NCBI GenBank assembly: GCA_027596945.1
Contig: JADGJH010000386.1
Location: 1 to 19,754 of the forward strand
DNA length: 19,754 nucleotides
DNA from: Physocladia obscura
Taxonomy: Eukaryota; Chytridiomycota; Chytridiomycetes; Chytridiales; Chytriomycetaceae
Direction of reading: 5' to 3'
A program made the translations under genes and the position numbers. This document shows, one piece after another, positions 1 to 19,320 of this stretch (the stretch's first letter is position 1; each line of letters starts with the position of its first letter). The notes under the pieces are model-generated. The model did no database searches and was not told the DNA's origin. It saw only the letters and a list, made by a program, of their open reading frames with translations.

Positions 1-303
1 AAAAAAAGTTACACAATGCATAATTATTCATAAAGATGCCTTTTAAATTTCCAAAATGTATTATTATGTATTATCAGGATTTTGTGAATTTCCTGATGTA
101 CTTATATTGTTGCAATGTACTGCAGTTTCTAACTCACTATAGCTTGTTGCTGGCAGTCCAGTATTTCCAGCATTTTTAAACAAGTGTTTGTCAAATCAAG
201 AAATGCTGCTGTTGTTGACATTGTTTGTGTTGCGACAACGGCGGATTTCTGACATTTAAAAGTGGCACTGTTTTGTTGTTTCTGTGAGTTTTTTTCTCTA
301 TCT
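1..303. other. AT-rich flank downstream of the aspartokinase-like gene
   Basis: I see no convincing gene here. A 62-codon minus-strand reading frame (129-317) overlaps the stop codon of the next gene in another frame, has no recognisable domain and is best read as 3' untranslated sequence. The neighbouring gene's AATAAA signal (complement of 303-308) directs 3' processing into this stretch. Confidence 0.5.
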
Positions 304-308
304 TTATT
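303..308 (-). promoter_or_regulatory. Poly(A) signal overlapping the stop codon
   Basis: The minus strand reads AATAAA with the TAA stop of the aspartokinase-like gene inside the hexamer. The consensus is seen directly; its use is inferred. Confidence 0.4.
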
Positions 309-2502
309 TGAAGACAATCGCCTTGTGGACAGCTCTTACAGCATCATTGACTGCATCTTCTGCAACAACAACACTTGCACCTTCAGACCCAACTCCCTGT
401 GAACACATTTCGAAATGAATCCTTGCTCCACCTAATGCCCCAAGTAGTTTATCAATCAACCCAGTATTCCTGTTTGACTTGTTGTCAAAGCCAGCATCAA
501 CACCAGCTGTTATCAGTGATACTATTCCTTTTGCTTGATGAACAGTCACATTCACTGACTTGAGACATTTAAGTTTTTCAACCGCTAGTTTTAAGTTTGA
601 TGACTTTTCATTCCAAATTCTCTGTCTCGTTTTCCTCCTCCTACTAATATGTTTTTTTGATCTATCAACTGGCCATCAGTATCATCGTCTGCAACAGCAA
701 CAGTGACAGCTTTATAGTTGCTTGATGAAAGATAAACCTGAACCCCAAACTCGTCAAGAACTGCAAACACAAATGCGAGTACTTTATAAGTTTCATTAAG
801 TTCTGGGCCTTGCTGCTGTTGTTGTTGCTGCTGTCTCGCGAAATCTTTTTTTCGTCGTTTTTTTTCTTGATGCTGCATGTGATTACTGTTTAAATTATCA
901 TCGCTGGTGCTGCTGCCGCCACCCCTTTCAAGAACTCGATCAACACGGATCAAAGCCACACGTTTACGAAAAATCACCATGTTTTGCAAACCATTACTAC
1001 CATCACCACAATCACTATTAAGTTGGCCCTGCCCAATTATCCGCGTTCCAAATTTCTCTGTCACCTCAAGTATGCTCCAATTGGAACTAACAGCCGCACT
1101 AACAACATCTGCAATTCGCGCAATATACACAAGTGGAGCCACTCGATTCGAATTTCCAAGATCATCACAACTGCCACTGCCATATAGGGCAATATCAAGT
1201 GCCGTGCGTGAAAGCGCTGCCTCAGTGTCATCTCCGCTAAGTGCGCAAATTTTCGATGCAGCCTGCACAGACACCGCGTGGATATGATGTGATGTATTTG
1301 GTGACGCGATGCGGGGATCTATGGTGCGTATTCCGGCTATTTGGGTGTGCAAGAAAATGAGAGCTGCTGATGATATATTATTGTAATTGCTGTTAATAAG
1401 TGCTCGAACGACGAGGGCTGCAAACACCGAAGTGTGGCCGCGGTTGGGAAGGTGGATGCGGAACGATAAAAAATGCGGAAGAGGTCCAAATGAGCCTGTG
1501 TACAAATTTAAATATAACATTAAAATAATTATTTTTAATGTTAACCAGAAAAGACTGCAACGATTGAATCATCAACGGAATTTGATTTTTCATTGGAAAT
1601 GATATTGGTTTGTACGAGAGTTTTCGACAAATTTTCAACTACTTGGGCAAAGAATGTATCATCCATTGAATGGGTCGAGTGATTTGAATCCACGATATTA
1701 TTCGTCGATATTAGTTTCGCATTGATTCCCTATTATAAGTTGTGTTTTGTGTGTACAGAAATATGATAAGAAACAAAAGTAGTCCAATTGCAATTTTCAG
1801 ACCAACCACAGACTGAAGAGACGCGACTAAAATAATCGCAGCAATATTATCAGCTACAGATATTAGACTGTCGTAAGAGCTAGCTGACATTTCACCGATC
1901 ATCTGGAAATGCCAGCAACGACGGTTTGTTTTGTGTAAGTGTAAAATTAGATCTTATGAGTAGACAAGAAACCTGAATAGCATTCAAAAACTCTTTCACA
2001 CGGTCGAGAGCATCGCACACAGCAACTTCAGCGTCTTCACCAAGCTGCGCGTCGCGAACGGACCGACGGACAAGTTGAACCAGTTGACGTTGCATTTCTG
2101 CAATAAGTTGCGTGGGAGACTCTTCGCTGTCAAATTCGCCGTTGCATTCCACAGAACAATTACGAACTATTTTCTGTCTATTCCCTCGAGCCAAACTAAG
2201 TGCCGCTGCTGCAATAAGTCTTTTTTTTTTTTTGGTGAGGTGATAATCATTGCGAATAATAGGAAACCTTTCCGCGCATGACATAGCATCACACACCGGA
2301 CTGTGCAGCTTTATTGAAGAAACAACAATGGCTGTTCGGCTTTGCGCTGACGTTATTCTGGATAAGTCATTAGAGCCCTGAATCTGCGTTCAACATTTTA
2401 GTCGGAAAGCTCGAACCTTGCGAGCTCAGCAACTTCTGCAATCGAAGATTGGGATCCCAGAGACGCTGAATCCAGACGCAAAACTATCCATTGATCCTTC
2501 AT
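304..2502 (-). CDS. Aspartokinase-like protein (Hom3 type), catalytic motifs degenerate
   Basis: Seven exons (complement): 2417-2502, 2268-2357, 1973-2219, 1807-1902, 1546-1729, 645-1495, 304-603. All introns are GT-AG (59, 48, 70, 77, 50, 41 bases) and the joined frame gives 617 residues against about 530 for yeast Hom3. The order matches fungal aspartokinase: an N-terminal amino-acid kinase fold, then two ACT-type regulatory regions (roughly 395-617, ending with SQG and an AVNDAVRAVHKA helix). Colinear matches include WIVL (5-8), LNAIQMIGEMS (136-147), VFSGSFG (232-238) and GIRTIDPR (289-296). The family's catalytic signatures are replaced: KFGGTS is RLDSAS (9-14), the GE of the next conserved block is AD (158-159), GRGxTD is NRGHTS (252-257) and the VDG Asp is Ala288. 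An eight-glutamine tract lies in an inserted linker near residue 440. Aspartokinase normally phosphorylates aspartate at the head of Thr/Met synthesis; this copy is probably inactive as a kinase. Intact frames over seven exons argue against a pseudogene. The 41-base last intron is the least certain junction. Confidence 0.85.
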
Positions 2503-2592
2503 GTGGTTTTCGAGTCTTTTGTTGCCAGAATTTGGGGAGGTCAATTTTGAATATCATTTGATTCACCAAAAACACAAACAAAAGAAGAAAAA

Positions 2593-2680
2593 TTTTTTTT
2601 ATCTTTTTTTTTTTTTTTTTTTCTTTAAAAAAACTTAATTAAAAAAAAATTAAAAAAAATATTAAAAAAAAAAAAAAAAA
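2593..2680. repeat. Homopolymer poly-T / poly-A tract
   Basis: A T-rich block is followed directly by an A-rich block, so the two halves are roughly self-complementary. The tract separates two minus-strand genes: it lies just upstream of the aspartokinase-like start and downstream of the tyrosinase stop. It holds no coding sequence. Lengths of such runs are often unreliable in assemblies. Confidence 0.7.
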
Positions 2681-2697
2681 GAAGGAAGGATGTTGAT

Positions 2698-4633
2698 TTA
2701 GATAGAAATAGAATCAATACTATTTCCAACTGCATTGGCAGTAGCTAGATTTACAGGTCCGCAGTTTTCTATATTCCATCTGTCAATCCTCTCCTTTGTC
2801 CGCGCTTCGCTGTTTCTAATCTTGTTGTAATTCAATTGATGCATTTTAATCCACCTGTCAGTCGTTGGGTTCGGATACATTTGGTAGCACGGATCGCCGG
2901 CCGTCACGTTTGTTGGAGCACCTAGCGCCGGTACATACGGCTTGAGCGGCGTGTCAATATAATAACGAATAATTATTTTTTTTCCTCCTTCGTAATCGTA
3001 GGCTTCGGCATACGACCGATAAATGTATCGCAGTTTTTGGCCCGCGGGAATCGTGAGAGTCTTGTTTGTGCGTTGAAGGAACGTGATGAGAAGAGTTCCA
3101 TTGGCGCCACCTGAAATCTCGTAGTGTGTTTGGCTGTCATCCACAATCTTGTTAGCAGAAGAGTAGGATGTGCTGTCTTTTTTTTCGTCCCGGCGGCCAA
3201 ATACGGCAATTGTTGAGTTTGTTGATGCGCTGCCAAAAGAGTGTGGACTTATGATAAGGTCATCGAGCAGCTTGTTCATCCAGACATCTGCAAGGGTGAC
3301 TGTGACAGCACCTGTGCTGCTCGAACCACTGGCATCGGTTGAGTTAGTTGAGCCAGTTGAATTGGAAGTGTTGTTGTCGCTTGAATCTGCTGCTGCTGCT
3401 GGGACACCAGTAAAAGCTGGACAAGTGACAGACGGCATTGATAAATCACCAGCAGACGTGGTATATGTGAAGCACAGCAAATCTCCCTCAGGGTTGAGAA
3501 GTTGTCCAACTGTGATGCCCAAAGTGTCAACGTCCTGTGTCATTGTTGCAACGTCACTGGAAGTCAAGTCAATGGGGTCATTATTGGTTAAAGGCCCGTC
3601 ATAATCGTACATAAAAGCTGGGCAGCGTTGTTGCCAACGCCACCACACTTTATCGACAAGTGCATGATGTACTATTTTGACCAAAAACTATTAAAATTAC
3701 TGATTGCAAATTATTAAGACTTACGCCAAAAGAGAGGATCATTTGGAGATATGGAAGTATTTGCCATATCTGACGAGCAACTGGAGCTTCCTCCGCCAAT
3801 AGTTTCGTGGCCAGAGGCGTGACGGGACTTTCGTCATTATCATCAATTGAATCGCCCCGAAATGCGGCATAAGTCAAAGCCGAATAGCGCGCATTAATAT
3901 CTGGCGGAGCAGTTGTGGCAGAACCAACATCGCTGCAGCGGCCCAGACATTGAGTGACAGCGGTGGTGTGCATCCCCGGAGCGTAGCTCGAGATCCGAGT
4001 CCAGCCCGGCAACAGCCTAGCCAGGGAATGCAAACACGCCGTCAATAACGCAATTGTTTGGATCGGAACTTGTTGGCGAACCGAAATACGTCGAGGAGAG
4101 GACATCAGATGTCCACCAGTTGGTGTTTATTGCCGGCCAGTCCCAGTATACCACACCACCCGACCAGCCAGCCGTCTGCATTGCCTGCTCAAATACATAC
4201 ACCATTGCGCGGTGGTATGGGTAGAACTCAGCCGAACCGTGGGCCCACGGCGAGGCGCGTGCGTGGCTGGAATCCAGAATTCAGGGGAAAAAAGGGTAGG
4301 AGGTCAATTGTTGGATTAATCATCATAGAATCAGCGAAAGAATGCAGCCAATACTCACAAATTCGTAAAGTCTTTCAGCGAGATTGTTGCTGCGTCGGCT
4401 AAAACACCGCTTGGGTTCTGCGGACGATCGGCCAGAGCCTTTATGGCTGCAACATACTGCGTCTTCTGGTTTGCACTCAATGTACTCCACTCAACGCGCA
4501 ACAATGGTGAAGTGCACGCGCTGCCGGTGACTCCAATTATCGCCACCGCCACAAGTACAAGCGTCAGCCCACTAGCTTGCGAAATAATCGCCCACACATT
4601 TACAAGTTTCCTTCCACATCCATTTTTTCCCTC
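2698..4633 (-). pseudogene. Tyrosinase (type-3 copper oxidase), reading frame broken
   Basis: Exons (complement): about 4359-4633, 3725-4266, 2698-3671; introns of 92 bases (4267-4358) and 53 bases (3672-3724), GT-AG. Tyrosinases oxidise phenols to quinones at a dinuclear copper centre. The hydrophobic stretch LTLVLVAVAIIGVTGSA looks like a signal peptide. CuA histidines lie in NFHARASPWAH and EFYPYHR; CuB histidines in SRHASGHETIGG and, after the second intron, FWLHHALVDKVWW. The C-terminal part has a Ser/Thr/Asn-rich segment with several N-glycosylation sequons. Two frameshifts lie in exon 2: near 4005-4022, where the CuA frame meets TAG just after DGVFAFPG, and near 3820-3835, between ALTYAAFRG and SRHASGH. 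No GT-AG intron repairs either. They add to a multiple of three, so total exon length stays in phase. No in-frame ATG precedes the signal peptide (GTG at 4597); the ATGs around 4608-4616 are in other frames, and an upstream exon may be missed. Six retained histidines suggest recent damage or sequence error. Confidence 0.82.
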
Positions 4634-4636
4634 CTA

Positions 4637-5198
4637 AAATTTTTCTGCAAGTGATTAAAAAAAAAAACCTGTGAGTCACAGCAAATTTTTAACAATCATA
4701 AACTATATTATACTTACAGCCAATAAAATAATGCTAGAGTAATAGAAACTTTCTTTTAGCCCTTTTCATAGTTTTTTGCTTTGTTTTTTTTCTTCTTTTA
4801 GATGTACACTGTGACAAATTTAGATCTTCGTTGAAAGCTCGTCCCGAAAAACTTTTTTATTGAATTCTTGGCCCTGCAAAACAGCACGACTTATTGCCAC
4901 CCCACTAATTCTAATCAAAATAAATAAATAAAGTAAATATAAAAGATTCACCAAACCAATTTAAACAAGCTACAGATGAACCAAATTGGCTAGGCCAAAA
5001 ATATTACAAACTCAACATCTGAAACTTTCCATCAAATCTAATAATTTCCAAATGTAACATTTAACCTTTAATTCACCCCTCTTTGTAAAAACAAATGCTT
5101 TGCAACTGGCATTTAAATCTTCAGCCAAGAAAGTGCCCAACTATACATAACTTGCTATAAATTGAAGGAGGTTTTAATTTATTGAACATGCTCTTTGA
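4637..5198. other. AT-rich intergenic region upstream of the tyrosinase
   Basis: No gene is recognisable. A strong donor (minus-strand GTAAGT near 4716-4721) and acceptor-like ends (near 4634 and 4646) suggest a 5' untranslated intron, or a lost first exon, of the tyrosinase. The remainder is AT-rich spacer without clear motifs. Confidence 0.4.
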
Positions 5199-6000
5199 AT
5201 GGTTAGCTTTTGGGGAGGAATTTTAGATAAAAAGTGCGGGATGTGCAACCGCCGCTCTACGCGAAGACAAGACTGCATCAGCCTTCTTGCGGAGTGGAAG
5301 GCAGAACACGCGAAACTCGTGCCGGTACAGCCGGCAAAGAAACGTCAGCGCATAGAGTCGACGACCGGACGTGCAAACAACATCTGGATCTGCTTCGGGA
5401 TCGCAGACGGCGACGGCCAGCCTTGGGAAAGGGAAGGTGCAGCTTCACCACAATCTCAACGGCTGCGAAAAGAGTTGGGCCAAGCGGCGGACATTTTAAC
5501 GAGCGGTGCGCATAAAACGAGCGAAGCGGTGGGTGGCGTCACTCCAAACGATCTGGCAGCGTCTGCCACAGCCACGATCAAAGTGTCAACAGCAACTGCG
5601 TCGACCAGCACAAATGCGCCATTCTGTTTTGGAGGCGTGGATTTAGTTGGGCCGCCGCCGTTTATGATGCCAGATCTTGCCAGTCAAATGTGGACTAGCG
5701 AATCTGCACTGACTCCCTCTGTTAGGCCGCCATTCCAGTTTAGGCCACTGTCAAAACAGCGCAATCACACCACCTGCTTCTGCCCGCATCCCTGGTCAAA
5801 TTGACCTAATTGCGCGCATACAGAAAATGGAAGATTGCACAGATTAAGCTGAAGCCAAGACTACTGCACTGCAAGCACAGTTGCAGCAGTTAATTGCACT
5901 ACTGAGCACTATTACAGGCCAGCAAGCCACCATCACGAGCAACACCTCAGTAGGCGACCGTATTGCAAATACATTGGAGTGAATGGCCAAAACATACCTG
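5199..6000 (+). pseudogene. Unrecognised GC-richer reading frame, decayed
   Basis: A 201-codon open frame (5199-5804) stands out as GC-richer against AT-rich flanks. It begins with a Cys/Arg-rich segment (CGMCNRRSTRRQDC), then a charged helix with a basic patch (AKKRQR), then a low-complexity Ala/Thr/Ser/Pro-rich part. Near 5750 the sense appears to move to another + frame (the PASARIPGQIDLIARIQKMEDC segment), which continues as a Gln/Leu-rich potential coiled coil (TALQAQLQQLIALLS) to about 5990 but is cut by TAA near 5845 and TGA near 5980. I recognise no family. It could be a former host gene or the gag-like part of a mobile element, given the copia remains that follow. The frame change and stops make a functional product unlikely. 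Confidence 0.4.
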
Positions 6001-6181
6001 GACTTGCACCAGCCAAAGAAAATATAGACGAAAAATAAAAGACGCTTTGAAACAAAAATGGTTGGAAAGCAGTTGGAGATTGCTTGAGTTGTTTTTGAGT
6101 TCTTGAAGTTAATAGAAGGGTTGAGAAATTTCTAGAAAATTCTTCGAGAAAAATTAGATTAGCGATCTAATTTATAACAAA

Positions 6182-8690
6182 ATGAACATTCAATTTATTT
6201 AGATTGTGGTGCAAACTTTCATGTGATTCCTAAGGAATTAGAAATTCATGATGCTAAACAGGTGAATACAAAGTATTACATCACTGATTTCACTAACAAT
6301 CACACTCCTGTTCAGTTTGAAGGAAGTTTCACATATGCCGTTAGAGGTACAATAAAAATTTTTTTCAAGCCCTAATTTGTGGCAAAGTTACTGATGTATT
6401 AATCTCTTGTTTACAATGGCTAAAAGGGACAGAAGATCAAATTATTTTGACAGCTAAAATGCCTTCTACCAAAAATCTGGATCTATAGAATCACATGAAA
6501 TTGCCAAGGTGAATGACAGCATGTACCAAATGAATTCATTGACGACTCTGAAAGAGGATAAGGTACCAGCTGCAAAATTTATTTGCTCAACTGAATCACA
6601 GGTACCACATAATTTCCCAATTTTCTATGTCAAGGCTTGTATAATAAGACAAGAATTGATGACAACAAAAATCTAAAATTGGCAAAAGAAATTGAAAAAG
6701 GAGATAATGTGGAGGTAAAACAAACACATGTTTTTACCATTAGAAACAAACTTATTCATTCAAACTTAAGCAAAAATCAATGCAATGAAAATTTTTGCTT
6801 TATTGTACTCAGTTTATGTGAGAAATAGAATGAGTTATCAGGATGATCCATCAACATCTCCACATAAAATGTCGTTTAAAGAAGACCTTGACCTCACAAA
6901 ACTACATCCTTTTGGATGTCAAGTTACAATGCATTTAGCGAAAGAACAAAGAGGTGGAATTTTTCTTTGTTATATAGGAAATTCACTTTATAGAATTTAC
7001 AACACTGACAAAAGAAAAATTGTTACAAGTACACATTGCATTTTTCATCACAATGTTATCCCTGGCCTGAAAACAGACAAGAAAAAATTTGACAATGACA
7101 AATTAGAAAATTCTGAAGACTCAGCAGAAGCTAAACCAGAAATTCAAAGATACAACCTGAGATCAAGAATTTCTGGGGAGGCAAATACAATAAAACCCTC
7201 TGAATCAGAAGCTTCTTTATTCTCAAATGAAAATGAAATTCTTGACTCAAGTGAAGACTCACAATCAGATTCATCTGAATACCTTTCTGCATAGTGTGAA
7301 ACAACTGAAGAAAGTGAATCTGAATTTAGTTCGATTCATTACGAAATGGCTGAATCAGAAATACTTTCGGATTTCTCTATATTAGATGATAATTTGATGA
7401 ACTTAGAAATCTCATTATAGAATTTCTGACGAAGAAATTTCTGACACTGAAAGCCAAGCAAAAGCATCTGAGCCTGCAACAATTGTGTTATCAGAAGAAA
7501 CATAAACTAAAATGGCCAGATAGAAGATGGTCACAGTCTTGATTTTAAAATTGTCAAAAACCAAAACAGAACAGACCTAAAGCAAAAAAAAAGGTAAATC
7601 AGAAGAAAAGGATATATATCCAAACCCAAAAGTATCACCACTATATGGATCCATATCAGCTGACAATCTTCCACTGCCATGAAAGAAATGCTCAAACATA
7701 AATTTGCTGATTATTTCATTGAAGCAGAGAAAGCAAAACTCAATGCTTTGCATATGAAGAAAGTATAGTTGAAGGGCCAAAAACCAAAGAAAAGAAAACT
7801 TTGAAGGTCAAAATGGGTATACACTTATAAAATTGATCATGAAAACAATAGTGTTCAATGCTTTAAAGCACATTTGGTGTGATGGGCAGCACACAAAAAA
7901 AGTGTTGATTACACAGAAATTTTCTCTCCTGTGATGAGAATCCAAACACTCCACATCATTTTAGTTAATGCACAACATCTAAAAATGCTTATAGAGCAAG
8001 CTGATGTCAACACAGCATATCTGAATGCCATTTTGGATGGCATTTCCAGAAGGGTATGAAGAGTATGATGAAGGTGGAAATCCATTTGTGCTTTTGTTAT
8101 GAAAAAGTCTGTATGGATTGCATCAAGCTAAACAAAAATGGTACAAATTAATCACAAAGGACCTGAAAGATGCTGGTTTCATACAAGCAAAACAGATCCA
8201 TGTTTATTTATGAAATATTCAGAAACAAAAAGAGGATTTATTCTTTCACAAGGAGAGATTGATGATATCAAAAATATTTTGAAAAGGAAATTTTCTATCA
8301 AAGAAATGGATCAACCAAAACATGTTCTTGACTTAACCATTGAACATGTGCTGATGGAGTTTATCTTGGGCAACCAAAGTATGCCAAAGAAATTCTGGAA
8401 ACAATGGATATGCTAAACTGCAATCCAAGACCAACTCCAATGACTGTAGGTTGGGAACATGATGAAAACAGTCCCAAACTCAGTCCTGAGAGAAAAAAAA
8501 TTCTGATTCACTAACAATGAAATTCTCATATTTAGCTAATCAAACATGGCCAGATATTGCATTTACAGTCAATAAATTATCTCAATATCAAAAAAATTGT
8601 AGAGAACATGACTGAAAAGCACTGGTGCATCTGGCAAGGTGTATAAGACTTTGGTTTGTTCTATATGGCAAATTGTAATCCAATTGCCAC
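6182..8690 (+). mobile_element. Ty1/copia retrotransposon pol relic
   Basis: Successive fragments in different + frames follow copia pol order. A protease-like active site YLDCGANFHVIPK, normally D-S/T-G, is at 6196-6234. A degraded pre-integrase part follows (about 6400-6620). The integrase C-terminal segment YVRNRMS through KLHPFGCQVTMHL to YRIYNTDKRKIVTS is at 6785-7050, followed by an acidic linker. The reverse transcriptase comes next: YKIDHENNSVQCFKAHLV and VDYTEIFSPVMRIQTL (about 7815-7960), QADVNTAYLN (about 8000-8030), KSLYGLHQAKQKWYK (about 8103-8150), and a late ANQTWPDIAFTVNKLS segment (about 8536-8585). Stops and frameshifts occur in every part, the integrase core is missing and the RNase H end is truncated. 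The longest open piece is 6785-7294. It cannot make a working polyprotein. Confidence 0.85.
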
Positions 8691-8746
8691 TGTACACACA
8701 AATGAAAGTAATTACAACATTTTAAATGACTTAAAATGGTTCTACC

Positions 8747-8827
8747 TGTTGATTTGCCATGCCATGTGTAACAAGGGGTTTTAGAGATGATATAATTTTA
8801 TTGATTTGGTTTTTATACATTTTCCAG
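8747..8827 (+). repeat. LTR-like terminal fragment, copy 1
   Basis: It begins TGTTGATTTGCC, continues through GTGTAACAAGGGGTTTTAG and fades near 8827. The same sequence, lacking a six-base insertion, recurs at 19678 in the same orientation. TGTTGA is a common start for copia LTRs, and the position about 60 bases after the copia pol relic suits a 3' LTR beginning. No second LTR boundary or target-site duplication could be fixed. Confidence 0.6.
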
Positions 8828-9557
8828 TGTCTTGATGGCACCTTGGCTTGATTGATCACCTGCTATCTTAGCTAAGTGGCAAATGCTCTATTTGCCATTT
8901 TTTGATGATACCAGCAGTGCCTTTAATCAAGATCCGGTAGGTTGCACCAATTTTTCCATTTTTCCATTCAAATTTTCAAAGTTGGAGCACTTAGAAAAAC
9001 TTGCCTATCAATCCATCACTTTTGAAACATACATGTTGTCACAAGTGCATACAATTAATACAGAGCCATTTCTAGGCTTCCAGCATCTCCTAGCATCAAT
9101 TGTGAATGAGAAATAAAAATATTTCTATCTTTATAACCCATTATAACACATTGCACTGAGTACCACTACAGCAGCATGAGCTGTTGTACTAATAGTACCC
9201 TTGGCTAAAAGTACAGCTTTATTCATCTCTTTAATCATTACAATGTTACTCTTGTTATCTACACAAGCTGAGGTCTCATGTATGCATAACAAGTCCTGAG
9301 AGATTCACTATGTGTATATGTTATGTTACTCAATGATAAAGAAAATGCTGTTTAATAAAGCAGCTGAAAAACATACAGAAATATTGTGTATGATGTTTCT
9401 TGCGTACTTTACTATCTTTACACATTATTTCAGTGTGGTGATCACTGTAGATGGCATCTTTCAGTCTCAGTTAAGATTAGAACTTGAATTCCAAATCTTA
9501 AATAAAAGCTTTGTATTTCAATTCCTAATTATTGTACACAGAAAATTAATGGACTAA
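8828..9557. other. AT-rich stretch, probably older transposon debris
   Basis: No family is recognisable. Open stretches at 8883-9116 and 9312-9557 on + show no motif. The minus strand of about 9150-9290 holds a short uninterrupted stretch that includes ETSACVDNKSNIVMIKEMNK; its position, downstream of the gypsy RNase H, would suit more of that element, but I cannot confirm it. Confidence 0.35.
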
Positions 9558-10540
9558 TTATATTTTGCAGTGAATTATTCCAGACTGTTGCCACTGGTCA
9601 TGGAATTTAACAGAATTAATATTCCAAGACATTGCAAAGATTCTGCAGTTTGCTTGTTGACTCAATCCCAGCACACTATCCACATGATTTTCCAAATTAG
9701 TAGAATCATCAAATTCCCCCAAATTCCATTGACTCATAGTGTCAGCACCCCAAAAAAATTTGTGGAGAGATGTAAGTTCATGAACACAACTAAGGACCTC
9801 CTGCTTGTATTGCTCATACTTAGTCTCCACATCACTAAAGCACCCAGAAACAAAACACATACCATACTGTCTGCAAACAACATCTTGTCCAACCCAAGCA
9901 GATTATCCAAGCGGGGAAGCATCAGTAGTGACATAAATTTGACCTGCTCTGGAATCATACCAAATTGGACATAAGACTTGACAACTAGTTAAAGATTGAA
10001 TAATGTCTTTCTTTGCAGATGGGATTTTATTGCAATTTTTGACCAAGTTTGCACCTTTTTTCATCATACTGTTCAAGATGTCAGCCCTGGCAGCAAAATT
10101 TGGCACATAACAACAGAAAAAGGTAGCAAGACCCACAAAAGCGCAAATTTTCAAAGCCAACTCCAATGACCCCAGTCTGCTAACTTTCTTGCTTTGCGCT
10201 GACTAGGCTGCCTGCCTTTGCCATTGCACAAATGACCAACAGCTTTGCATTCTTGAGTACACCCAGATAGTGTAACTCCAGACTCTTAAATCCAATGTAA
10301 TGCCAGTATCAAAACTTTAGGATGGGCAGCCACAAAATTCTGAACTCCTTGTCTGGCAAAGCTACAATCTGTCTCATGAAACTTTGTGCCTTTAATAACA
10401 TAGTTGTCCAAAAATGACCTTTAATAACATAGTTGTCCAAAAATGAGCAGACATGCTGAGACACAAACAGTTGAAGAATTTTCATAGAAGTGCACAGCTG
10501 TCAGGGATTGAAACCCAAGAATTTCAATCAACAAAGGTGT
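9558..10540 (-). mobile_element. Ty3/gypsy retrotransposon RT-RNase H relic
   Basis: Read on minus, the pieces follow fungal gypsy pol order. A reverse transcriptase piece SFLDNYVIKG, in the place of the usual I/V-D-D-V-x-x-K-G, is near 10400-10450, followed by GVQNFVAAHPKVL near 10320-10355. The connection segment HYLGVLKNAKLL is near 10240-10280. KICAFVGLATFFCCYVPNFA (10100-10160) corresponds to the usual RAFLG-FYRRFIPNFA region, and the open frame runs to PIWYDSRAGQIYVTTDASPLG (9903-9965), the start of RNase H. In another frame FSDVETKYEQYKQEVLSCVHEL (about 9770-9835) matches the later RNase H segment normally ending in a tyrosine-rich EKE-like helix. Frame changes, stops and a mutated YIDD-like core show decay. 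Integrase and LTRs were not identified. Confidence 0.75.
10389..10446. repeat. 29-bp tandem duplication
   Basis: Two identical adjacent 29-base units (10389-10417 and 10418-10446), starting cctttaataacatagttg, lie in the reverse-transcriptase part of the gypsy relic. Because 29 is not a multiple of three, the duplication shifts the frame of the SFLDNYVIKG segment. Confidence 0.9.
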
Positions 10541-10888
10541 TCAAGTAAAATTTTCCAGATTTGAGTCCAGATCTTCATATAAATTCATCTGTTGCAGTTG
10601 TTCCAATACATGCAATAGAAGCAAGGGCACAGGACTCAAAATGTAGCATCCAGTTTCATTTTGTTCATGTTCAGGTGCTACTTGGTAATGCTGCAAACAT
10701 GCAAACCTAGTTTCATTTTGTTCATGTTCAGGTGCTACTTGGTAATGCTGCAAACATGCAAACCTAGATATCCCATATTTGTGCTTGATTGAAAAGAACA
10801 TAAGAATTTTCCCAACAAGCAACTTTGTTCCACCTAAACCCAAGTCAACAACAGGTGATTTAAGAGACTCCAAATCATACAGACACAT
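10541..10888 (-). pseudogene. Open frame upstream of the gypsy relic, probably part of it
   Basis: A 115-codon minus-strand open frame of unknown identity abuts the RT relic. It holds an in-frame duplicated 19-residue block (RFACLQHYQVAPEHEQNET twice). By position it would be the protease-to-RT spacer of the element, but no protease D-T/S-G motif is visible. Its openness may be chance. Confidence 0.3.
10653..10766. repeat. 57-bp tandem duplication
   Basis: Two identical adjacent 57-base units (10653-10709 and 10710-10766), starting gtttcattttgttcatg, encode the same 19 residues on the minus strand. Perfect identity implies the duplication is far younger than the relic that contains it, or is an assembly artefact. 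Confidence 0.9.
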
Positions 10889-11323
10889 ACTGCTAGAATT
10901 GTTGTGAGTTTGGAAAAAGTCAATGTATTCTGATCCATCTTCATCATAATTAGTGCGTTGAAAGAGTATTGATTTGTCAATTTGTAATTCTGTCTTGTTT
11001 TGGTACAGTTATTGCAAACCCTAATACAGTATATAACTTTGAATGCTTAAAACATACTCAAAATACAAGATATAGCATTCCTCTTTTAGCTACAATAACT
11101 TTGAATGAAGATAATTGAATTTTCTTCATATGTATCGATTTACAGTCCACAGAACAAATGAAATTGTGTCTGATGTATTGCAAGCACAAATCAAGGAAGT
11201 GTGCTTTACTTTATTAGAAATAAAGATCAATTTGAAAGACACGATATCAGAAAATTTTCCGTTTTTCATTTTTGTTGCATTTATTCCGTCTTATTTTGAA
11301 CTGTAAACATAATTTATGGCCAA
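10889..11323. other. AT-rich spacer downstream of CCT6
   Basis: No gene is recognisable. A 63-codon + frame (11115-11306) has no family resemblance and ends just before the CCT6 stop. The stretch marks the edge of the transposon-rich block and carries the CCT6 3' untranslated region. Confidence 0.4.
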
Positions 11324-13392
11324 TCAATTATCAACTGGGCCTGATGATCTTAAGCTTGAACGACCAGCCCTCATCATTTCATCCACAAGCAAAAAGTTGC
11401 TTGCAATAACCGAACTGTGAGAAATTCATACCGTCAGCAATGAAGAAAAAAATCGATTAAAACAAAAACAAGCAATTAATCAACTTCAGAAGAATCGTAC
11501 CAAGAATGCAGCAAGTGACGATGAACTCTGTAATTGTCAAAAATTCCTTCCAATACCGGATCACATGTTTCTCCAGTTTTCAAATCAACACCCACAATAT
11601 GACCTTCTGCATACTCTTCCTGCATCAGAACAATAACATCTTGAGCATCGAATCCAGCGTTTCTGGCAAGAGTTTTTGGGATGATAAGTAAAGCGTCTGA
11701 GAATGCCTGGACTCCCATCTTGGCTCTTCCTTTGACTGACGCTTTGCATTCATTCAGATGAGCTGACAGAGCAATATTGAAAGCGCCGGCTCCAGGAACA
11801 ACATGTTCATCCTCAATAGCATTCATCACTGCACGCAAACCGTCACGAACAGCGTCATTAATTTGAGTAATCGTGTGTGCATTCGGTCCAGTAATCAAAA
11901 GTGTGACAGATGCAGGGTTCGCGACGTTTTCCAAAAAAGTAAACTTTTCTTCACCGAGAACGTGCTCATACACCAGACCAGAGTGTCCTAAAACGCTTTC
12001 GTCCAAGTCGTCGACAGAGTTTTGCGCAACACCACCGCAGCAAAGTTGCAGACGCTCCATATTTCTTCTTTTTGCCCTTCTAAGGGCCAAAATATTATGT
12101 TTCGCGAGAACGTCGAGACTGAGCGGATCGATTCCTTTTTGGTTGATGATAACGAATCCTTTGTTTTTGTTTTTTCCATCGCACACTTTGTTTTTGAAAT
12201 CAACAATTTTCGCGAGGCGGGCATCAACGAATCTCCGCTCTGATTCCACAAGTTTTTCGCGTTGCTCGGCAGATGAATAGAAGAATCCAGAGTTGATTTC
12301 ACTGAGAGGCAAAAAAAAAAGAAGAAAAAAGTGAGAAACTTGGCGACTGCAAATAACTACAAATCTTACGCACCTCTTTTCATATTCTAATGAAACATTC
12401 AAAGTCAAAATAAACGCATCTTCAACTCTTTTTGGCATATCCGGGTGTCTCGCGCCGTGGTCCATGACCAAACCCTTAACTAAACGGGTATCAGTCTCAT
12501 TTTTGTGCATCATTTTCATTATTTCCACCATATGCAAGTCAATTGGTTGACCCGGACGGTGAATTGCCATAACTGCATCGACAATGGCTTCGGTAAGCGA
12601 ATCGGCAACTTCAGTGCGTACTTTCGTTCGAAGGGAAGAACGGGCGACAGATATCAAAAGGTCACGGTTGATAGTTTTTTTGAGCTTGAACTTTTCGAGG
12701 AACTAATAAAACAACAAAAAAAGCATTTGGAGCTAATTTTCAGATTTGAAGAAATACTTCAAGCAATTTTCAAACCAGCAAGGACTCCTTTTTCGCGATT
12801 TCAAAGCCTTCGGTAACAACTCTTGGATGCAATCCTTCGGAAATGTATCGTTCCGCCTGCTTCAGAAGTTCACCAATCATAATAACATTCGAAGTAGTTC
12901 CATCTCCAGTAATATCATCTTGCGCTGTTGCAGCACGCGCAATCATCGAGGCGGTTGGGTTTTGGATTTGCTGTGTTTCGGTTGTGATGAGAAAAAAAAT
13001 AAAAACAAGCAGACTAACCATTTCTGATAGAAGAACCTTTCCATCTTTGGTTAACTTAATATCTCCTGAGCCTCCAACAAGCCTGTTTTTGAAATGATTG
13101 ATAAAACGGTCGAATCTGAAAAAACAGTTGAAAACAAACGCACATTTTGATTGTTCCCTTCGGGCCCAGATTAGTCTTTAGAACATCCTGTAGGCCTAAA
13201 GCGGCATTGATATTGAGCTGCAATGCCTGACCGCGTCGGGCAACTTCGGCGTTGGGATTTGCTCGTTGAATTGCAGCCGAAGACCTGGACACAAACAAAC
13301 GCAAGTACAATTGCAGGCAGATTAGCTCTGTATTAGAATCAACGAATGCGCATTGGGGCTGATGTTTGCTGAAGTTTATTGGCTGCTCACAT
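11324..13392 (-). CDS. CCT6: T-complex protein 1 subunit zeta (CCT6)
   Basis: Exons (complement): 13391-13392, 13144-13284, 13019-13082, 12776-12970, 12703-based acceptor to 12374-12702, 11501-12301, 11324-11414. Introns are 106, 61, 48, 73, 72 and 86 bases, all GT-AG. The product is 540 residues, the usual size. CCT6 is one of eight paralogous ATPase subunits of the cytosolic TRiC/CCT ring that folds actin, tubulin and other proteins. Group II chaperonin motifs are in place: [11 protein letters not shown] near 40, [12 protein letters not shown] near 53-65, the ATP-site GDGTT at 91-95, [10 protein letters not shown], the apical-domain [41 protein letters not shown], and [11 protein letters not shown] in the second equatorial half. 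The last 30 residues ([21 protein letters not shown] and tail) sit in a separate 3' exon that is missed if the frame is simply read to the TAA at 11476. The start is AT at 13391-13392 joined to G at 13284, with a canonical GTGAGC donor. Housekeeping gene with clean frames. Confidence 0.95.
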
Positions 13393-13771
13393 TTTTGGTG
13401 TGGTTTTCTTGATTTCCACCCCATCTCAAAGTTGCGAAGACAATTCAAATCATTTAACGGAATTTGAAACTCAGTGATTTCTCTACTTATCATATACATC
13501 TGTATTTTAAAATACAGTTGTGTTTTAATTGCTCATTATTATTTTTACAATACGAGAATTTACTGAAGAATTTCACTCAGTCAATCCGTATTTGAAAATT
13601 ACAAAGTATTACATAAAATATATTTTTGCCTTCATTATTGTAATCATAAATTTCGAGCAGGGGCTGATGCCAAGCGAGTGAAGCCCGATTTTGTGACAAA
13701 ATCAAAAAAAAAGCAATTGAAAGTGGAAAAATTTTTGAAACCAAAAAAAGAAAATAAAGGCTGTTCTAATA
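13393..13771. promoter_or_regulatory. Divergent intergenic region between CCT6 and the DHA2 transporter
   Basis: About 380 AT-rich bases separate the two divergent start codons, so both promoters should lie here. A GATTTTG-TGA-CAAAATC hairpin (13687-13703) sits in the probable transporter leader; its role is unknown. I see no confident TATA box or named regulatory site. Confidence 0.4.
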
Positions 13772-15789
13772 ATGTCGGAGCAAACTAAAAACGACCTTCT
13801 TGTTTCTTCCACTCCAACGCAATCTTCCACCTCGGAAATTTCTGTTCCGATTGATGCATTGGTTGGAAAAACAACAATCGAAGTCCAAGACCCACCTGTT
13901 TCTCTCATAAATGCAGTCAAAGTCCCTCTTTCTCGGCCCCAATTCATTCTCGTCTTCGTCGGTTTATTACTGGGAATCATGATGGCGGCTTTGGATCAAA
14001 CTATCGTTTCAACCGCTTTGAAAGCGATTGTTGCAGACCTTGGCCATCAGGTTTTTATTTTCAAGCTTTTTGTTGAAGGTGTCTGATAAATTTTCTTGTT
14101 TGATTTCCAATCTCATTCAGGAACTTGTGCCGTGGATTGGTAGCGCGTATCTATTGACTGCCGCACCATTTGGAACAATGTATGGAAAATTTGCTGACTT
14201 GTTCGGAAGAAAATGGGTGTTTGTGTTTGCGTTAGTTGTTTTCGAAGTTGGCTCATTGCTGTGTGGCATAGCGCCGAATATGTCTGTTTTGATTTTCGGA
14301 CGAGCAGTTGCTGGTGTTGGAGGCGGTGGAATATTTAGTTTGGTTCTCATCATTATATCAGACATTGTGTCAATTCAAGACAGAGGTACCAATTTCTTTT
14401 CATATATTTATTTTTTCTTTTCTTATTAGTCTCGGCGAATGCACCAAAAATAGGAAAATTCCAGGGAATGATCGGAGCATGTTTTGGTCTTGCGTCTGTG
14501 ATTGGACCTCTTGTTGGAGGAGCATTTTCAGATAAAGTGTCTTGGAGGTATTCAAATCCATAAACTATTTCAGAAATTCTTATTCTTCATGAATCAGATG
14601 GTGCTTTTACGTTAATCTTCCCCTTGGTGCCATCACAGTAGCGACTGTTATAATATTCCTGAGGTTTCCAGTTCCCGAAGGAGCTTTAGTCGACAAGTTC
14701 AAACGCATCGACTTTCTTGGCACTGCGACGCTATTTGCTGCAATTATTTGTCTGGTCACTCCACTTCAGCTTGGAGGCAGTGTGTGGAACTGGGATTCTG
14801 CGCAAGTTATTGTCATGTTTATCCTCGCTCCGATTTTTTTCGCACTATTTGCGTATACTCAAATGAAGATTTCAGCCGAGCCAATCGTTCCTGCCTCATT
14901 ATTTTGCAACTCCAGTGTTCCCGCACTTTTGGGAATATCTTTTTGTGTTGGCGCGGCTTTCTTCGCAGCAGTTTATTATATTTCACTCTTTTTCCAAGTT
15001 GTTAGCAGCGACACTGCCACACAAGCTGGAATTCAAACGATTCCTCTTGTATTTGGTGTAGTTTCTCTTTCAGTTACGAGTGGAATTTACATATCAAAGA
15101 CAGGTTTGTTAAATTATGTCTTTTTCTAAACTCCTTCAATTTTTTTGCTTTCTTCAATGGCTTACAAAATCAAAATTGTAGGAAATTACAAAAGACTTCT
15201 AATTATCGGGCCAATATTTATGATTATTGGCGCTAGTTTGACAGCGACACTTGACTCCGACTCCTTCCAAGTTCAAAAGATTTTTTACCTGTTCATTTTC
15301 GGAATTGGTGCTGGCTCAATGATTCAAACGCGGGTTCTTGGAGCGCAAGCATCCGTTCCACCAAAACTTATTGCAATTGTGACAGCTGTATCTCAAACGG
15401 GCCAAACCCTTGGTGGTGCTTTTGCTGTTTCTATTTCTGGAACAATCTTTAACAACATTGTTTCGAGCGACATTTCAAACTATCCAGCCCTGGTTAATGC
15501 TATCGGCGAACTACAAGCAATGAATATTACTGTGGATCCAACGAGCGTTTTGGCATTGTCAGGAATTCTTCAAACCTCGCCTTTTGTTACAAATGGCGAT
15601 GTTGCAAATAGAAATCTGATTGAGGTGTTCAATCACGCTTACAAAGTTGCATATTTCTCGTTGTTGGTGTACCCGGCGCTGATTTTAGTCTTGGTTTTGT
15701 TTGTGGAGCAATTTAGTTTTGGAGCGAAGCCAGCTGACAAAGCTGCTAAAGTTACCAAAGATGCTGGTGTTGGTGCTGCCGGTCATTGA
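13772..15789 (+). CDS. MFS transporter, DHA2 (14-TMS) drug:H+ antiporter family
   Basis: Exons 13772-14050, 14121-14385, 14454-14547, 14598-15103, 15182-15789 join to 583 residues; introns of 70, 68, 50 and 78 bases are GT-AG. It is a polytopic membrane protein with 14 predicted helices after a roughly 50-residue hydrophilic N-terminus. Family marks are [10 protein letters not shown] in helix 1, motif [11 protein letters not shown] at 115-124, the motif C-like [10 protein letters not shown], and [13 protein letters not shown] at the end of helix 5 and start of helix 6. The hydrophilic C-terminal tail ([11 protein letters not shown] and on) is Lys/Ala-rich. Relatives export drugs, toxins or basic amino acids, or move siderophores, by proton exchange; the substrate cannot be told here. 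No secondary-metabolite cluster surrounds it. Intron 2 has two in-frame acceptors, 14429 (better pyrimidine tract) and 14453 (better fit to the family); the first would insert eight residues. Confidence 0.92.
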
Positions 15790-16635
15790 AGGCTCAAAAA
15801 AAAACAAGTATATTAATATATATTTTCAGTATTTATCACACGACTAGTGTGTTAATAAAAAAAAATTTTTTTTGAAGAATTTCAACTGATGTAACTACAA
15901 TATTTAGTGAAAGATGCAAGTTGCGGAAGGTTGTTCAATATATAAAATTGAACAAGTATTCTATTAAAAAATACCAACGTGTAAAGATGCAGGAAGTGAT
16001 GAAAAAAAGAGGGCTGGTGGGAATCAAATAGATTCCAAATAATAGTTATGCATAAGTGCAGTGAGATACTTGTGTAGTGAGCTAAGAAAAGGAAATCAGT
16101 ATGAAATATTAATACAAATATTAAAAATCAAAAAAGAGTTAACACTCAATTATTTTTTGTCCTGGAACTAGAATGATTATAATGAAATGGGCCCATCAGT
16201 GTATCAATTTAAATAAAAGAAAATAATGAAATTTAGTCAAAATATTTCTGAAATGCTGGGAGATCACTGTTCAAATGTTTTTGAATTCACTCTGGAACTA
16301 TTTTTTGGATTTTGGAAATATACCGAGCAGTTTGATTGTGTTGCATTGGCTCAAATTTTGTGGACTTTTTTAATGGTCGTAACAATGATGTTCAGCTTTA
16401 TGTGTTTTTTTGCCATATGCTTTGTGACGACATTTGTGTAGTTACAAATGGCAAATTTGAACAGGATGAAATTCCAATGGTAAATTTATTGTTGTATGAA
16501 AAAAATTGAAATTTTGCTTGTGGATGATTTCTTGATGATTTCATCCAAAATCAGCTGCAAGTCCGAGAGAAGGAATCAGACTGTGGGGTATACGGGTTGA
16601 AATTTTTTTTTTTTTTTTTTTGAAACCTTTTCAAA
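15790..16635. other. Intergenic region between the transporter and the repeat-protein gene
   Basis: AATAAA at 15854-15859 lies about 65 bases after the transporter stop and is a likely poly(A) signal; a short CACAC-GACTA-GTGTG stem precedes it. A 71-codon open + frame at 16226-16441 has a hydrophobic C-terminal half but no family resemblance; I leave it uncalled. A run of T (about 16604-16621) precedes the next start codon. Nothing else is recognisable. Confidence 0.5.
15854..15859 (+). promoter_or_regulatory. Likely poly(A) signal of the DHA2 transporter
   Basis: Canonical AATAAA about 65 bases downstream of the stop, followed by an A/T-rich tract. Use is inferred from position. Confidence 0.45.
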
Positions 16636-17653
16636 ATGGTGACGAATCCCTTGCAGTCAATTGGATCATGGCCAGTGGACTTGACACAAATGGTACAAAA
16701 CTCACCTTTAATTCGCATAAATGCCTGTAGATAGTGACAAGCGGGTCATTGACGTGAAGAATTAAGTTTTGCGCGGCTAATTCAGTGTTTGCTTCTGAAA
16801 TTTTCACAGGTGGCGATCGTTGTCGCCGTCGAACTTGCCGCCGTCCAATTACTGATTCCTGCATGGACCCATGCGCATTTGTTTGAAGAAATTCAAACGG
16901 CCAAAACCACTGCTTCATGGCCAATCGATTTGACGCAGCTGGTTTGCTTTTTTATTATTATTATTATTGAACAACCATGAACTTTTTTTATTTTTTATTT
17001 TCAGCCCGTTGATATTGTCGCGTATGAGCTTGCGGCAGCTCAGTTATTGATTCCGACTGATGAGGAAGAAAACTATGCGCAATTCGGGTCGACACCAATC
17101 GCTCCAACTCCGGCGATCCCAACAAAAAATCCTAGCACTGTCGAAATTGATATTTCAAAAAAAGTTTCGTTGGGACCTAGTTGGACAATCAACCTTGCAT
17201 TGCTTGTGAGTCTTTTACTATTATATATGTATATAAATTTATATATATACGGTCAAGGAATGATTTTTAAAAATTCATATGCTCTTTCAGCCAGATAATA
17301 TCGCCAAACTGGAAGTTGCGGCGATGCAGCTGTGGATGCCAGTGTGGATGAACGAGTCACCTCCAGAATCGACATCAGATATTCAATCGAGAGAATTGGC
17401 AGAAGATGAGGGAGTTTCCGAAACGCCAGTCTATAAACCGAAAACAACAATCGTCAAATTGGGAACAGTGAGAATCAAAGTTGTCGAGCAGCAACAGCCG
17501 GCAAGAAAACTGCCAGCGCCAGCGCAAAAACGAACCTTGAAATCGATGAAGTCGATTGACGCGATGCGCGGAGCAAACTGGCCGGTTTATTACGACTATG
17601 CATGGGAGCATCCGACAGGTCAAACAGATACGTCACGATCGTTGTTGGATTGA
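16636..17653 (+). CDS. Unrecognised 250-residue protein with an intron-straddling repeat motif
   Basis: Four exons: 16636-16692, 16810-16941, 17005-17205, 17291-17653. All three introns (117, 63, 85 bases) are phase 0 GT-AG. The ATG is in good context (TCAAAATGG). A 26-residue motif occurs three times, each cut by an intron after its ninth residue: SWPVDLTQM/VAIVVAVELAAVQLLIP (11-36), SWPIDLTQL/PVDIVAYELAAAQLLIP (55-80) and SWTINLALL/PDNIAKLEVAAMQLWMP (122-147). The consensus is S-W-x-x-D/N-L-x-x-L/M then x-x-x-I-x-x-x-E-L/V-A-A-x-Q-L-x-I/M-P, suggesting a short amphipathic helix. Between copies are polar, Pro/Thr-rich linkers; the C-terminal 100 residues are charged with a basic stretch and end in a Trp/Tyr-containing segment (ANWPVYYDYAWEHP). 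I know no family with this pattern and give no function. No signal peptide is evident. The recurring motif at identical splice positions is strong support for a real gene. Confidence 0.75.
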
Positions 17654-17697
17654 ATAATAAATAAAAAAAAGGGGAAGTATCAAGTAGGGAAGCCTGT
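17654..17697. promoter_or_regulatory. 44-bp convergent spacer with poly(A) signals
   Basis: Overlapping AATAAA hexamers on + (17656-17661 and 17660-17665) follow directly on the repeat-protein stop. On minus, AATAAA (17697-17702) contains the TAA stop of the NAA50-like gene. The two 3' ends must overlap as transcripts. Confidence 0.5.
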
Positions 17698-18307
17698 TTA
17701 TTTTGACCATGAATCGTTTTTTAGACTGAATCCAGCGTCCACAAGAACTTGGCTGATTTGTTTTTCATCACTGGCGATTGCGGCGACGGAGAATTCAATA
17801 GACTTTGTTTTTTCTGTGGCGGCCGCGACAACGCTTTCAACAAGCAGAGCCTCTGCGAATATATCCGAGATTCAGATATAGGCTGGCTAAGGTCTTTTCA
17901 CTTACCGAGGCCCAATTCGCGGTAAGGTTTTAGCACACACAGAGCTAACACGGTCAGTTTGTGTTGCGGCGGTTGAGCGTTTTTTGCATGTTTCCCGGTA
18001 ACTTCTTTCGGGTCAACATCTTTGCGGCACACCAATGCACCGACAGGCATATCATTGAAATAAACTGCCCGATTTGTCGTTTTATTTAGAGAGACAGACT
18101 CTGTTGCGAAAAAAAAAACAAAAACAAACCCAGTTTTGAGAGTTCATCGGCATTTAGCGACTCTTTGCAGAATCCGTCAATGTCGTTGCTGAATCCCTGC
18201 GGCATCTCGCGCTCAAGAAGCACTTTTAGCTGACCGAGGTTGTTTGGCGTCACTTCGCCCACCGCGGAGCGGAAGAACTTGGTTGGCCGAACGATTGTCA
18301 CGGCCAT
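17698..18307 (-). CDS. NAA50: N-alpha-acetyltransferase 50 (NAA50)-like GNAT protein
   Basis: Three exons (complement): 18130-18307, 17906-18064, 17698-17852; introns of 65 and 53 bases, GT-AG; 163 residues, close to 169 for human NAA50. NAA50 associates with the NatA complex and acetylates N-terminal Met. Family marks are GEVTPNNLGQLK (17-28), LSKLVYFNDMPVGALVCR (56-73), LTVLALCVLKPYRELGL (96-112) and a C-terminal DAGF like the usual YRKFGF block. Several functional positions differ: the acetyl-CoA loop R-x-x-G-x-G/A reads RELGLE (108-113), the position of human Tyr73 is Thr97, and the strand around human His112 reads IEFSVAAI without His. The Pro/His/Lys-rich insert at about 78-95 is longer than in the human protein. 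The Glu113 codon is split by the second intron, so that junction matters. Orthology is clear from the N-terminal half; activity is doubtful. Budding-yeast Naa50 is likewise regarded as inactive with an altered acetyl-CoA motif. Confidence 0.85.
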
Positions 18308-18640
18308 TTTCTGAGAGACAGGAGTTGATTCAGAGAAAAAAGTCGAAACTTTGAAAAAAAAAAGTGTGACACAAATGCAAACTATCAAGTAGCGAACGTG
18401 TTATGCGAATTTAAAGTGCAAATTTACCTTATGTCTCATTTCAAAATACTTTTTTACCAGTTTGATATGATTTCCTTGTATCATGGTTTAGATGTTGGAT
18501 GTTGAAAACCTTTCTCACCTAATTTCCAATTGAGTATTTTTCCACCTATTGAGCCTTCAAAAATAATTGCCCAATTCATAAGTTTGTTGAATTCATCACA
18601 AAATTTCACCTCAGGTTTGTGTAACAACTGGATTGATATT
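18308..18640. other. 5' flank of the NAA50-like gene
   Basis: AT-rich sequence with no recognisable gene. It should hold the NAA50-like promoter near 18308-18420. The rest adjoins a copia relic and may contain its unrecognised 3' end, but the LTR start seen at 8747 and 19678 is not found here in reverse. Confidence 0.4.
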
Positions 18641-18667
18641 TTCTAGGTCAATATTTCTTTCAGTTAC

Positions 18668-19000
18668 TTTTCATCTGTATATTGGCCAGTGATCTCATTC
18701 CCATTAGGGAAATTAAATTTTTGTTGTGCTGGTGATAAAACCTTTGTAAACATGTCAGCAATCATTTCTTCAGTTGGACAATATATCAGTTCAACACCTT
18801 TGGTTTTTAATAAAATTTCCTCTTATATCAACATTTTTCATCATTGCAAGGTGCTTAGGATTTGTAGCCACTGCAATTGTTGATTAATTGCCTTGGTATA
18901 TCTTAGTTGGATTGTCCATTGGGAATCCTAACCTTTCTAAGGTTTGTCGATACCATAAAGCTTCTTTAACAGCTTCTGATAATGCATAGAAATCTGTTTA
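18668..19000 (-). mobile_element. Ty1/copia RNase H relic
   Basis: The minus-strand pieces match the C-terminal RNase H end of copia pol. They run EAxWYRQTLERLGFPMDNPTK (about 18910-18970), then STIAVATNPKHLAMMKNVDIRGNF (about 18815-18890, the usual DNQSAIxLAxNP...R-T-KHIDI-F-I region), then, after a frame change, CPTEEMIADMFTKVLSPAQQKF (about 18720-18790, the usual PTxxQxADxxTKxL end). The Q of the DNQ motif is a TAA stop. It lies opposite in orientation to the copia relic at 6182-8690 and is only the last part of an element. Confidence 0.75.
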
Positions 19001-19320
19001 TGTTGATGTACCAATCATGAAGTTCATCAGGAAACCAGGTTAATACATAAAAATGAATTTTTATGTCTTGCAATGCATTGTAATGCATATCAAAGTTGTA
19101 AATGCACACAATGGGGCTGTGGTCATGCCCTGTGCTGCAACTCAGTGGTGAACTCTAATAAAATATTGAATTGACTGGTTTTCCACTCCGGAGAAGGCGC
19201 AGGATTATTAAAAATGGGATTTTTGCTTGAATTAAAGAATATTTTTATTTTTATTTTCTTCACCAATACTATCAAACAATGACTTGAAATATTCCAGCAA
19301 CTGCAGTGCAAAATTGATTC
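19001..19320. other. AT-rich stretch between copia relic pieces
   Basis: No recognisable gene. The minus-strand open frame 19123-19569 largely overlaps the more protein-like + frame that follows and shows no motif. This is probably transposon debris. Confidence 0.35.

Follow-up and report, generated by a model that had tools for sequence, protein, structure and literature searches.

A conserved, probably non-catalytic relative of aspartokinase in Physocladia obscura and other Chytriomycetaceae

Introduction

In fungi, the synthesis of threonine, methionine and isoleucine is entered through aspartokinase, an enzyme under feedback control. A stretch of DNA from the chytrid Physocladia obscura (assembly GCA_027596945.1, contig JADGJH010000386.1, positions 1 to 19,754; hereafter the window, meaning all 19,754 nucleotides) carries on its minus strand a gene whose predicted product aligns lengthwise with that enzyme, but in which the catalytic motifs are altered. 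The question raised by this locus is what such a protein might be: a broken copy, an enzyme with altered chemistry, or a protein retained for regulation. The evidence assembled below indicates that it is very probably both dead as an aspartokinase and conserved as such. The explanation placed first, to which we give an even chance, is that the gene encodes a clade-specific, full-length pseudo-aspartokinase that works alongside the active aspartokinase as its non-catalytic partner. A conserved dead twin of this kind, if confirmed, would represent a second layer of control on the aspartokinase pathway, and a new case of an amino-acid-kinase-fold pseudoenzyme in which catalytic and effector regions have both been rebuilt.

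Replacement of the catalytic motifs

When the seven exons of the gene were joined they yielded 617 codons free of stops, all six introns being bounded by GT and AG, and the resultant protein aligned with aspartokinase over its length, as a preliminary description of the locus had maintained. The replacements listed in that description were likewise recovered: RLDSAS for KFGGTS, AD for GE, NRGHTS for GRGYTD, and IAG for VDG (Table 1). Its statement that every catalytic signature had been replaced proved too broad, in that all four motifs are changed but the Arg of GRG, at the E. coli Arg198 position, and the DPR beyond VDG are kept. The Asp of VDG, there regarded as a catalytic residue binding ATP or aspartate, was discarded as a fixed catalytic position, the aspartokinase of Methanocaldococcus reading DVSG at that point. 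Two further departures were evident: in the glycine loop, Asp has taken the place of the first Gly of FGG, and WKE, ahead of VDG, is lost.

Throughout, E. coli residue numbers were transferred by motif, without aligning the E. coli sequence, and the aspartokinase catalytic Lys and Asp considered here were taken by us to be the equivalents of the catalytic residues of NAGK. The latter are reported to be Lys8, Lys217 and Asp162 (PMC2851564), and in E. coli LysC, Glu119 and Arg198 are described as holding the substrate aspartate (PMC5481828). The Asp of GRGYTD corresponds to D234 of yeast Hom3, for which the D234A replacement is reported to cause threonine and methionine auxotrophy with the abundance of Hom3 unchanged (PMC8664586).

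Searches with TIGR00657 (cut-off 208.7) did not list the window protein at E 0.01, the best of its relatives reaching 50.4 bits and the ordinary aspartokinase of the same genome 345 bits. With Pfam AA_kinase PF00696 (cut-off 24.9 bits) it was not listed even at E 1, and among the five relatives introduced below only P0002 passed (28.3 bits), P0006 reaching 22.0 bits and the other three giving no match at E 0.01. A profile constructed from the window protein and P0002 alone returned two PDB matches at E 0.001, both of them aspartokinases. An upstream exon restoring KFGGTS, raised in the preliminary description as a potential counter-indication, was absent from the three minus-strand frames of 1-2700. 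Judged by its residues, the window protein is probably inactive as an aspartokinase.

Orthologues and conservation

Protein searches, each scoring the approximately 8,000 candidates with most words in common, yielded orthologues in five other genera, all of which are placed with Physocladia in the Chytriomycetaceae: Rhizoclosmatium (P0002), Obelidium (P0003), Siphonaria (P0004), Podochytrium (P0005) and Chytriomyces (P0006). Within that candidate scope, a third search returned neither the active aspartokinases of fungi nor P0001 (the deposited model discussed below) and P0006. The relatives were 43 to 57% identical to P0002. Some of the database models are defective: P0004 is N-terminally incomplete, P0005 has an extra N-terminus and lacks the exon-2 region, and the resemblance of P0006 to the other orthologues ends after about residue 230. 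At least two of the orthologues (P0002 and P0005) are named Aspartokinase in public databases, so that pathway reconstructions trusting the name would list a probably dead protein among the enzymes.

The replaced residues recur across the six rows of the resultant alignment. The catalytic Lys is Arg in five rows, the same five in which the first Gly of FGG is Asp (P0004 lacks the site); Glu119 is Asp in all six; and Asp202, the equivalent of Hom3 D234, is Ser in all six, P0006 being poorly aligned there. The Arg198 position holds Arg in the window copy and Lys in three rows, the remaining two having Ser and a gap; the VDG Asp position is variable, and DPR is kept in five of the six.

Replacements fixed across orthologues, two of them conservative (Lys to Arg, Glu to Asp), would also be consistent with a neofunctionalised enzyme whose altered site (Arg, Asp, Asp, Ser) accommodates another substrate or another reaction. 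The amino-acid-kinase fold has other uses, as in the molybdenum storage protein, and a change at Glu119 of E. coli LysC is reported to shift specificity from aspartate to malate (PMC5481828). However, the presence of Ser in every row at the Asp needed for Hom3 function, together with the intrusion of Asp into the glycine loop and the loss of WKE, makes a new enzyme an unlikely outcome.

Conservation extends over the whole protein. Mean pairwise identities among the window protein, P0002, P0003, P0004 and P0005 (ten pairs each) were 0.59 for the N part of the kinase half, 0.51 for its C part, 0.58 for ACT1 and 0.60 for ACT2, P0006 being excluded because its model is broken; identity to the canonical paralogue was 0.21 to 0.27. 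In the four longest rows, 157 of 487 gap-free columns were invariant. In a neutral simulation to 46% identity, by substitutions only, 9.4 stops per lineage accumulated, and none of the 200 lineages stayed free of them. The occurrence of the same altered copy in five other genera suggests that the gene is not a broken one but has probably been retained for some regulatory task, and to that extent the earlier description of a pseudokinase of amino-acid metabolism, as distinct from a decaying copy, is upheld. A duplicate probably lost its phosphotransfer residues before the six genera diverged, and has probably been kept since then by selection on the whole protein.

Features that could be read as signs of a decaying pseudogene, intact-looking by chance, are the incomplete models of P0004 and P0006, a poly-Gln plus KKRRKK insert in the window copy, and the unusual donors. 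Five of the six introns begin with GTT, as against four of 14 in three other window genes and the paralogue (Fisher p 0.05; the 14 outside junctions were assigned by eye); GTT donors are thus in use in the Physocladia genome, yet over-represented in this gene. Decay is nonetheless very improbable, given that the same replacements recur in other genera at 43 to 57% identity to P0002 and that open frames would not be expected under neutral drift.

The canonical paralogue

The preliminary description had proposed a search for a second aspartokinase with KFGGTS, and an ordinary gene of this kind was indeed located on another Physocladia contig (C1035, locus L007), with KFGGTSVG, VGEKLS, GRGYTD and VDGIFTADPR. 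When the whole genome was searched with PF00696, six matches resulted on four contigs, among them the C1035 gene but not the window gene. Others, assessed by eye from open frames, look like acetylglutamate kinase and glutamate 5-kinase, and one, an amino-acid-kinase gene (locus L010, contig C31, approximately 2400-3230, minus strand), fell short of the cut-off of the isopentenyl phosphate kinase model that it matched.

Introns 1 to 4 of the window gene and of the C1035 gene occupy the same columns (31, 62, 148 and 180) with the same phases (2, 2, 0 and 0), the later two introns of each gene differing in position. The four coincident introns argue that the two genes are intron-retaining duplicates. 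A protein search of the Physocladia genome for a second locus of the pseudo-aspartokinase kind returned six candidates, all within the window gene, the search being blind to distant copies, since the canonical paralogue was not itself returned.

The ACT half

That the protein retains an ACT-type regulatory half, as had been described, was confirmed for the fold but not for its effector-site stretches. The window protein scored 33.4 bits with ACT_9 (PF22468; cut-off 27 bits), and in the predicted structures of P0002 and P0003, the orthologues folded in place of the window protein itself, two ACT domains come after a kinase fold, the last 80 residues of the P0003 model being of low confidence.

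The best-conserved 15-residue blocks (n = 4; spelling and x by majority of rows) were MCSxGVGxxGxSVVV in ACT2, FLxAIEIxGEMSPxS in the kinase half, VxxSSSxYKTVTVAV in ACT1 and RRSxxDPxLGEDAEA in the N part of the kinase. Three of the four are clearly unlike the canonical paralogue. In ACT2, SQGASEINIS has become SQGVGxxGxS in the orthologues and SQGVGSEGAS in the window copy; in ACT1, STSEVHVS has become SSxYxxVT and SSNYKAVT, respectively; and at the third differing block NEAIKNSTIKAEVSK lies opposite RRSIKDPNLGEDAEA of P0002. The altered ACT2 stretch is presumably effector-contacting. The ACT fold is kept, but the regulatory half is itself rebuilt.

In yeast Hom3, mutation at Ser399 or Gly452 is reported to lower threonine sensitivity (PMC11022571). 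The Ser399 position falls within the altered ACT1 stretch. The Gly452 position holds Gly in all five rows extending that far, with gaps right after, an observation that counts against a simple loss of the threonine site. As the effector-site stretches are changed, inherited threonine sensing is doubtful and an unchanged threonine sensor unlikely.

Candidate roles

According to the preferred explanation, an intron-bearing aspartokinase gene would have been duplicated and the loss of phosphotransfer residues from one copy would have preceded the split of Physocladia, Rhizoclosmatium, Obelidium, Siphonaria, Podochytrium and Chytriomyces; the dead copy would then use its ACT domains to pair with the active aspartokinase, and set the activity or feedback response of that enzyme in the manner of the dead paralogue of trypanosome deoxyhypusine synthase. 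An allosteric partnership had been suggested in the preliminary description, and is a reasonable proposal. Yeast Hom3 is reported to be a homodimer, forming a hexamer with threonine, with contacts in a homology model that are mainly ACT to ACT (PMC11022571), and its feedback inhibition is reported to require a protein partner, Fpr1 (PMC8664586). From this oligomerisation through ACT contacts and need of a partner it follows that a paralogue sharing this ACT fold would be well placed to join the oligomer. The dead kinase half is conserved, so that a mere ACT adaptor is less likely.

The precedents are of several kinds. The window protein shares with fungal aspartokinase (Hom3 type, including the C1035 copy) the amino-acid-kinase plus two ACT domains, the same predicted fold and four introns, but differs in the replaced catalytic Lys, Glu and Asp, the changed glycine loop and ACT stretches, and extra insertions. 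As metabolic-enzyme duplicates devoid of catalysis beside an active copy, trypanosome DHSp, which is reported to activate deoxyhypusine synthase (PMC3663545), and prozyme, which is reported to activate S-adenosylmethionine decarboxylase (PMC5201418, PMC6221367), are comparable; they are however different enzymes, for which complex formation and activation are described as demonstrated, whereas for the chytrid protein both are proposals. The fold itself serves for assembly and regulation beside an active kinase that has it too: yeast NAGK and NAGS are reported to form a metabolon (PMC3329491), and the amino-acid-kinase domain of NAGS is reported to function in assembly and arginine regulation (PMC4490483). 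Unlike the window protein, which has an ACT match at its C-terminus and no listed acetyltransferase family, NAGS is described as having an acetyltransferase domain, binding arginine and lacking ACT domains. Bacterial aspartokinase regulatory subunits (3ab4_B, 5yei_D) are likewise non-catalytic, aspartokinase-derived chains with ACT domains, but consist of the ACT part only (164 to 178 residues), whereas the window protein keeps a whole, conserved, dead kinase half. TIGR02078, the model for the paired Pyrococcus aspartokinase subunits, gave no match at E 0.01 to the window protein or its five relatives. A literature search covering the titles and abstract starts of open-licence PMC papers found no report of a pseudo-aspartokinase; dead-paralogue regulators and regulatory amino-acid-kinase domains are already known, and the new element is a conserved full-length pseudo-aspartokinase.

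The principal competitor is a stand-alone regulator, a dead homo-oligomer acting without the active aspartokinase, for example as a sensor of some other metabolite or in nutrient signalling. A new ligand would fit the fact that catalytic site and ACT stretches are both rebuilt and conserved as such. Also in favour of this alternative, the RRSxxDPxLGEDAEA block is specific to the pseudo-aspartokinase family, and yeast Hom3 has been linked to TORC1 signalling (PMC8664586); the same source, however, reports that the signalling effect depended on Hom3 catalysis. This alternative is possible but doubtful. On the strength of the Hom3 oligomer and of the dead-paralogue and NAGS/NAGK precedents, a hetero-oligomeric subunit was ranked first, a stand-alone regulator second and a new enzyme third.

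Several considerations weigh against the non-catalytic partner. With its effector stretches altered, the ACT half may be blind to threonine, and the excess of GTT donors is a hint of unusual splicing. Some other phosphotransfer is conceivable, two of the changes (Lys to Arg, Glu to Asp) being conservative and the residue at the Arg198 position being Arg in the window copy and Lys in three relatives. The canonical enzyme was sought in Physocladia only, among the six species, and the argument from absent stops is weakened by database models being built to avoid them. An extended version of the partner explanation, towards which we are more sceptical, is that in the Chytriomycetaceae the committed step to threonine, methionine and isoleucine might be conducted by a hetero-oligomer of active aspartokinase and an obligate dead subunit, with rebuilt ACT pockets answering to a new effector; such a complex would constitute a prozyme-type aspartokinase.

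Exon structure and the deposited model

The gene model (Table 1) was compared with spliced alignments generated by a home-made aligner under the GT-AG rule, with P0002 and P0003 as protein queries; the junctions of exons 1, 2 and 3 were fixed by comparison with P0002. With P0003 each of the six introns was recovered exactly, together with two gaps that fell in low-complexity inserts, and P0002 reproduced five, misplacing intron 2 and adding one low-complexity gap. An alignment free of splice motifs, conducted with P0002 only, placed breakpoints no more than 3 bases from introns 1, 3 and 4 and no more than 6 from intron 6, and did not recover introns 2 and 5. Intron 2, of 48 bases, contains no in-frame stop, so that its retention would leave the frame intact; it is backed by P0003 and by an intron of the same column and phase in the canonical paralogue. 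The junction of exons 6 and 7 is uncertain by several codons.

The alignment gaps at 2120-2152 and 809-886 (or 803-886) were considered as introns and taken as inserts instead. The insert at 809-886 (minus strand), which encodes KKRRKK and poly-Gln, is confined to the window copy and not found in relatives; being GT/AG-bounded and stop-free, it could be either coding sequence or an in-frame intron.

The public model HK100_008046 (P0001, 1071 residues), the top protein match for the spliced exons, joins the upstream tyrosinase gene to the pseudo-aspartokinase, and a fusion protein would be its literal interpretation. We regard this as scarcely credible: the model must skip pseudo-aspartokinase exons 2 and 4, none of the five relatives has a tyrosinase match at E 0.01, and the fusion was treated as an annotation error because the tyrosinase frame terminates at a stop of its own near 2698.

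Table 1. Coordinates of the putative pseudo-aspartokinase gene, its exons and its altered stretches in the window
Feature	Position	Strand	Basis or remark
Pseudo-aspartokinase gene	304..2502	minus	ATG 2502-2500, stop codon 306-304
Exon 1, start codon included	2417..2502	minus	Gene model and spliced alignment
Exon 2	2268..2357	minus	Spliced alignment; 3' end backed by P0003, not by P0002
Exon 3	1973..2219	minus	Gene model and spliced alignment
Exon 4	1807..1902	minus	Gene model and spliced alignment
Exon 5	1546..1729	minus	Gene model and spliced alignment
Exon 6	645..1495	minus	3' end uncertain by several codons; deposited model P0001 ends exon 6 earlier
Exon 7, ACT2 and stop codon	304..603	minus	Gene model, ACT_9 match and spliced alignment
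RLDSAS for KFGGTS (catalytic Lys to Arg)	2461..2478	minus	Counted from gene model
RRSVRDAQLGEDAEV, block kept in orthologues, unlike active paralogue	2024..2068	minus	Counted from gene model
AD for GE (E. coli Glu119 to Asp)	1849..1854	minus	Counted from gene model
NRGHTS for GRGYTD (catalytic Asp to Ser; Arg kept)	1428..1445	minus	Counted from gene model
IAGIRTIDPR for VDGIFTADPR (DPR kept)	1311..1340	minus	Counted from gene model
MCSQGVGSEGASVVV, altered ACT2 stretch	364..408	minus	Counted from gene model

Neighbouring features

A scan of the window for promoters and terminators of bacterial type, a scan type unsuited to a fungus, gave counts at the level of shuffled sequence. The tyrosinase gene (2698 to approximately 4640, minus strand), which adjoins the pseudo-aspartokinase gene, was recognised by a Pfam match in the deposited model. 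Further along, a match to a retroviral polymerase SH3-like domain at 6770-7294 (plus strand) is likely to be the remnant of a copia-type element, and a gene of the TCP-1/cpn60 chaperonin family extends from 11476 to approximately 13300 (minus strand). A gene at 13739-15789 (plus strand), for which one open frame was checked with no Pfam match at E 0.001, resembles an MFS transporter by eye.
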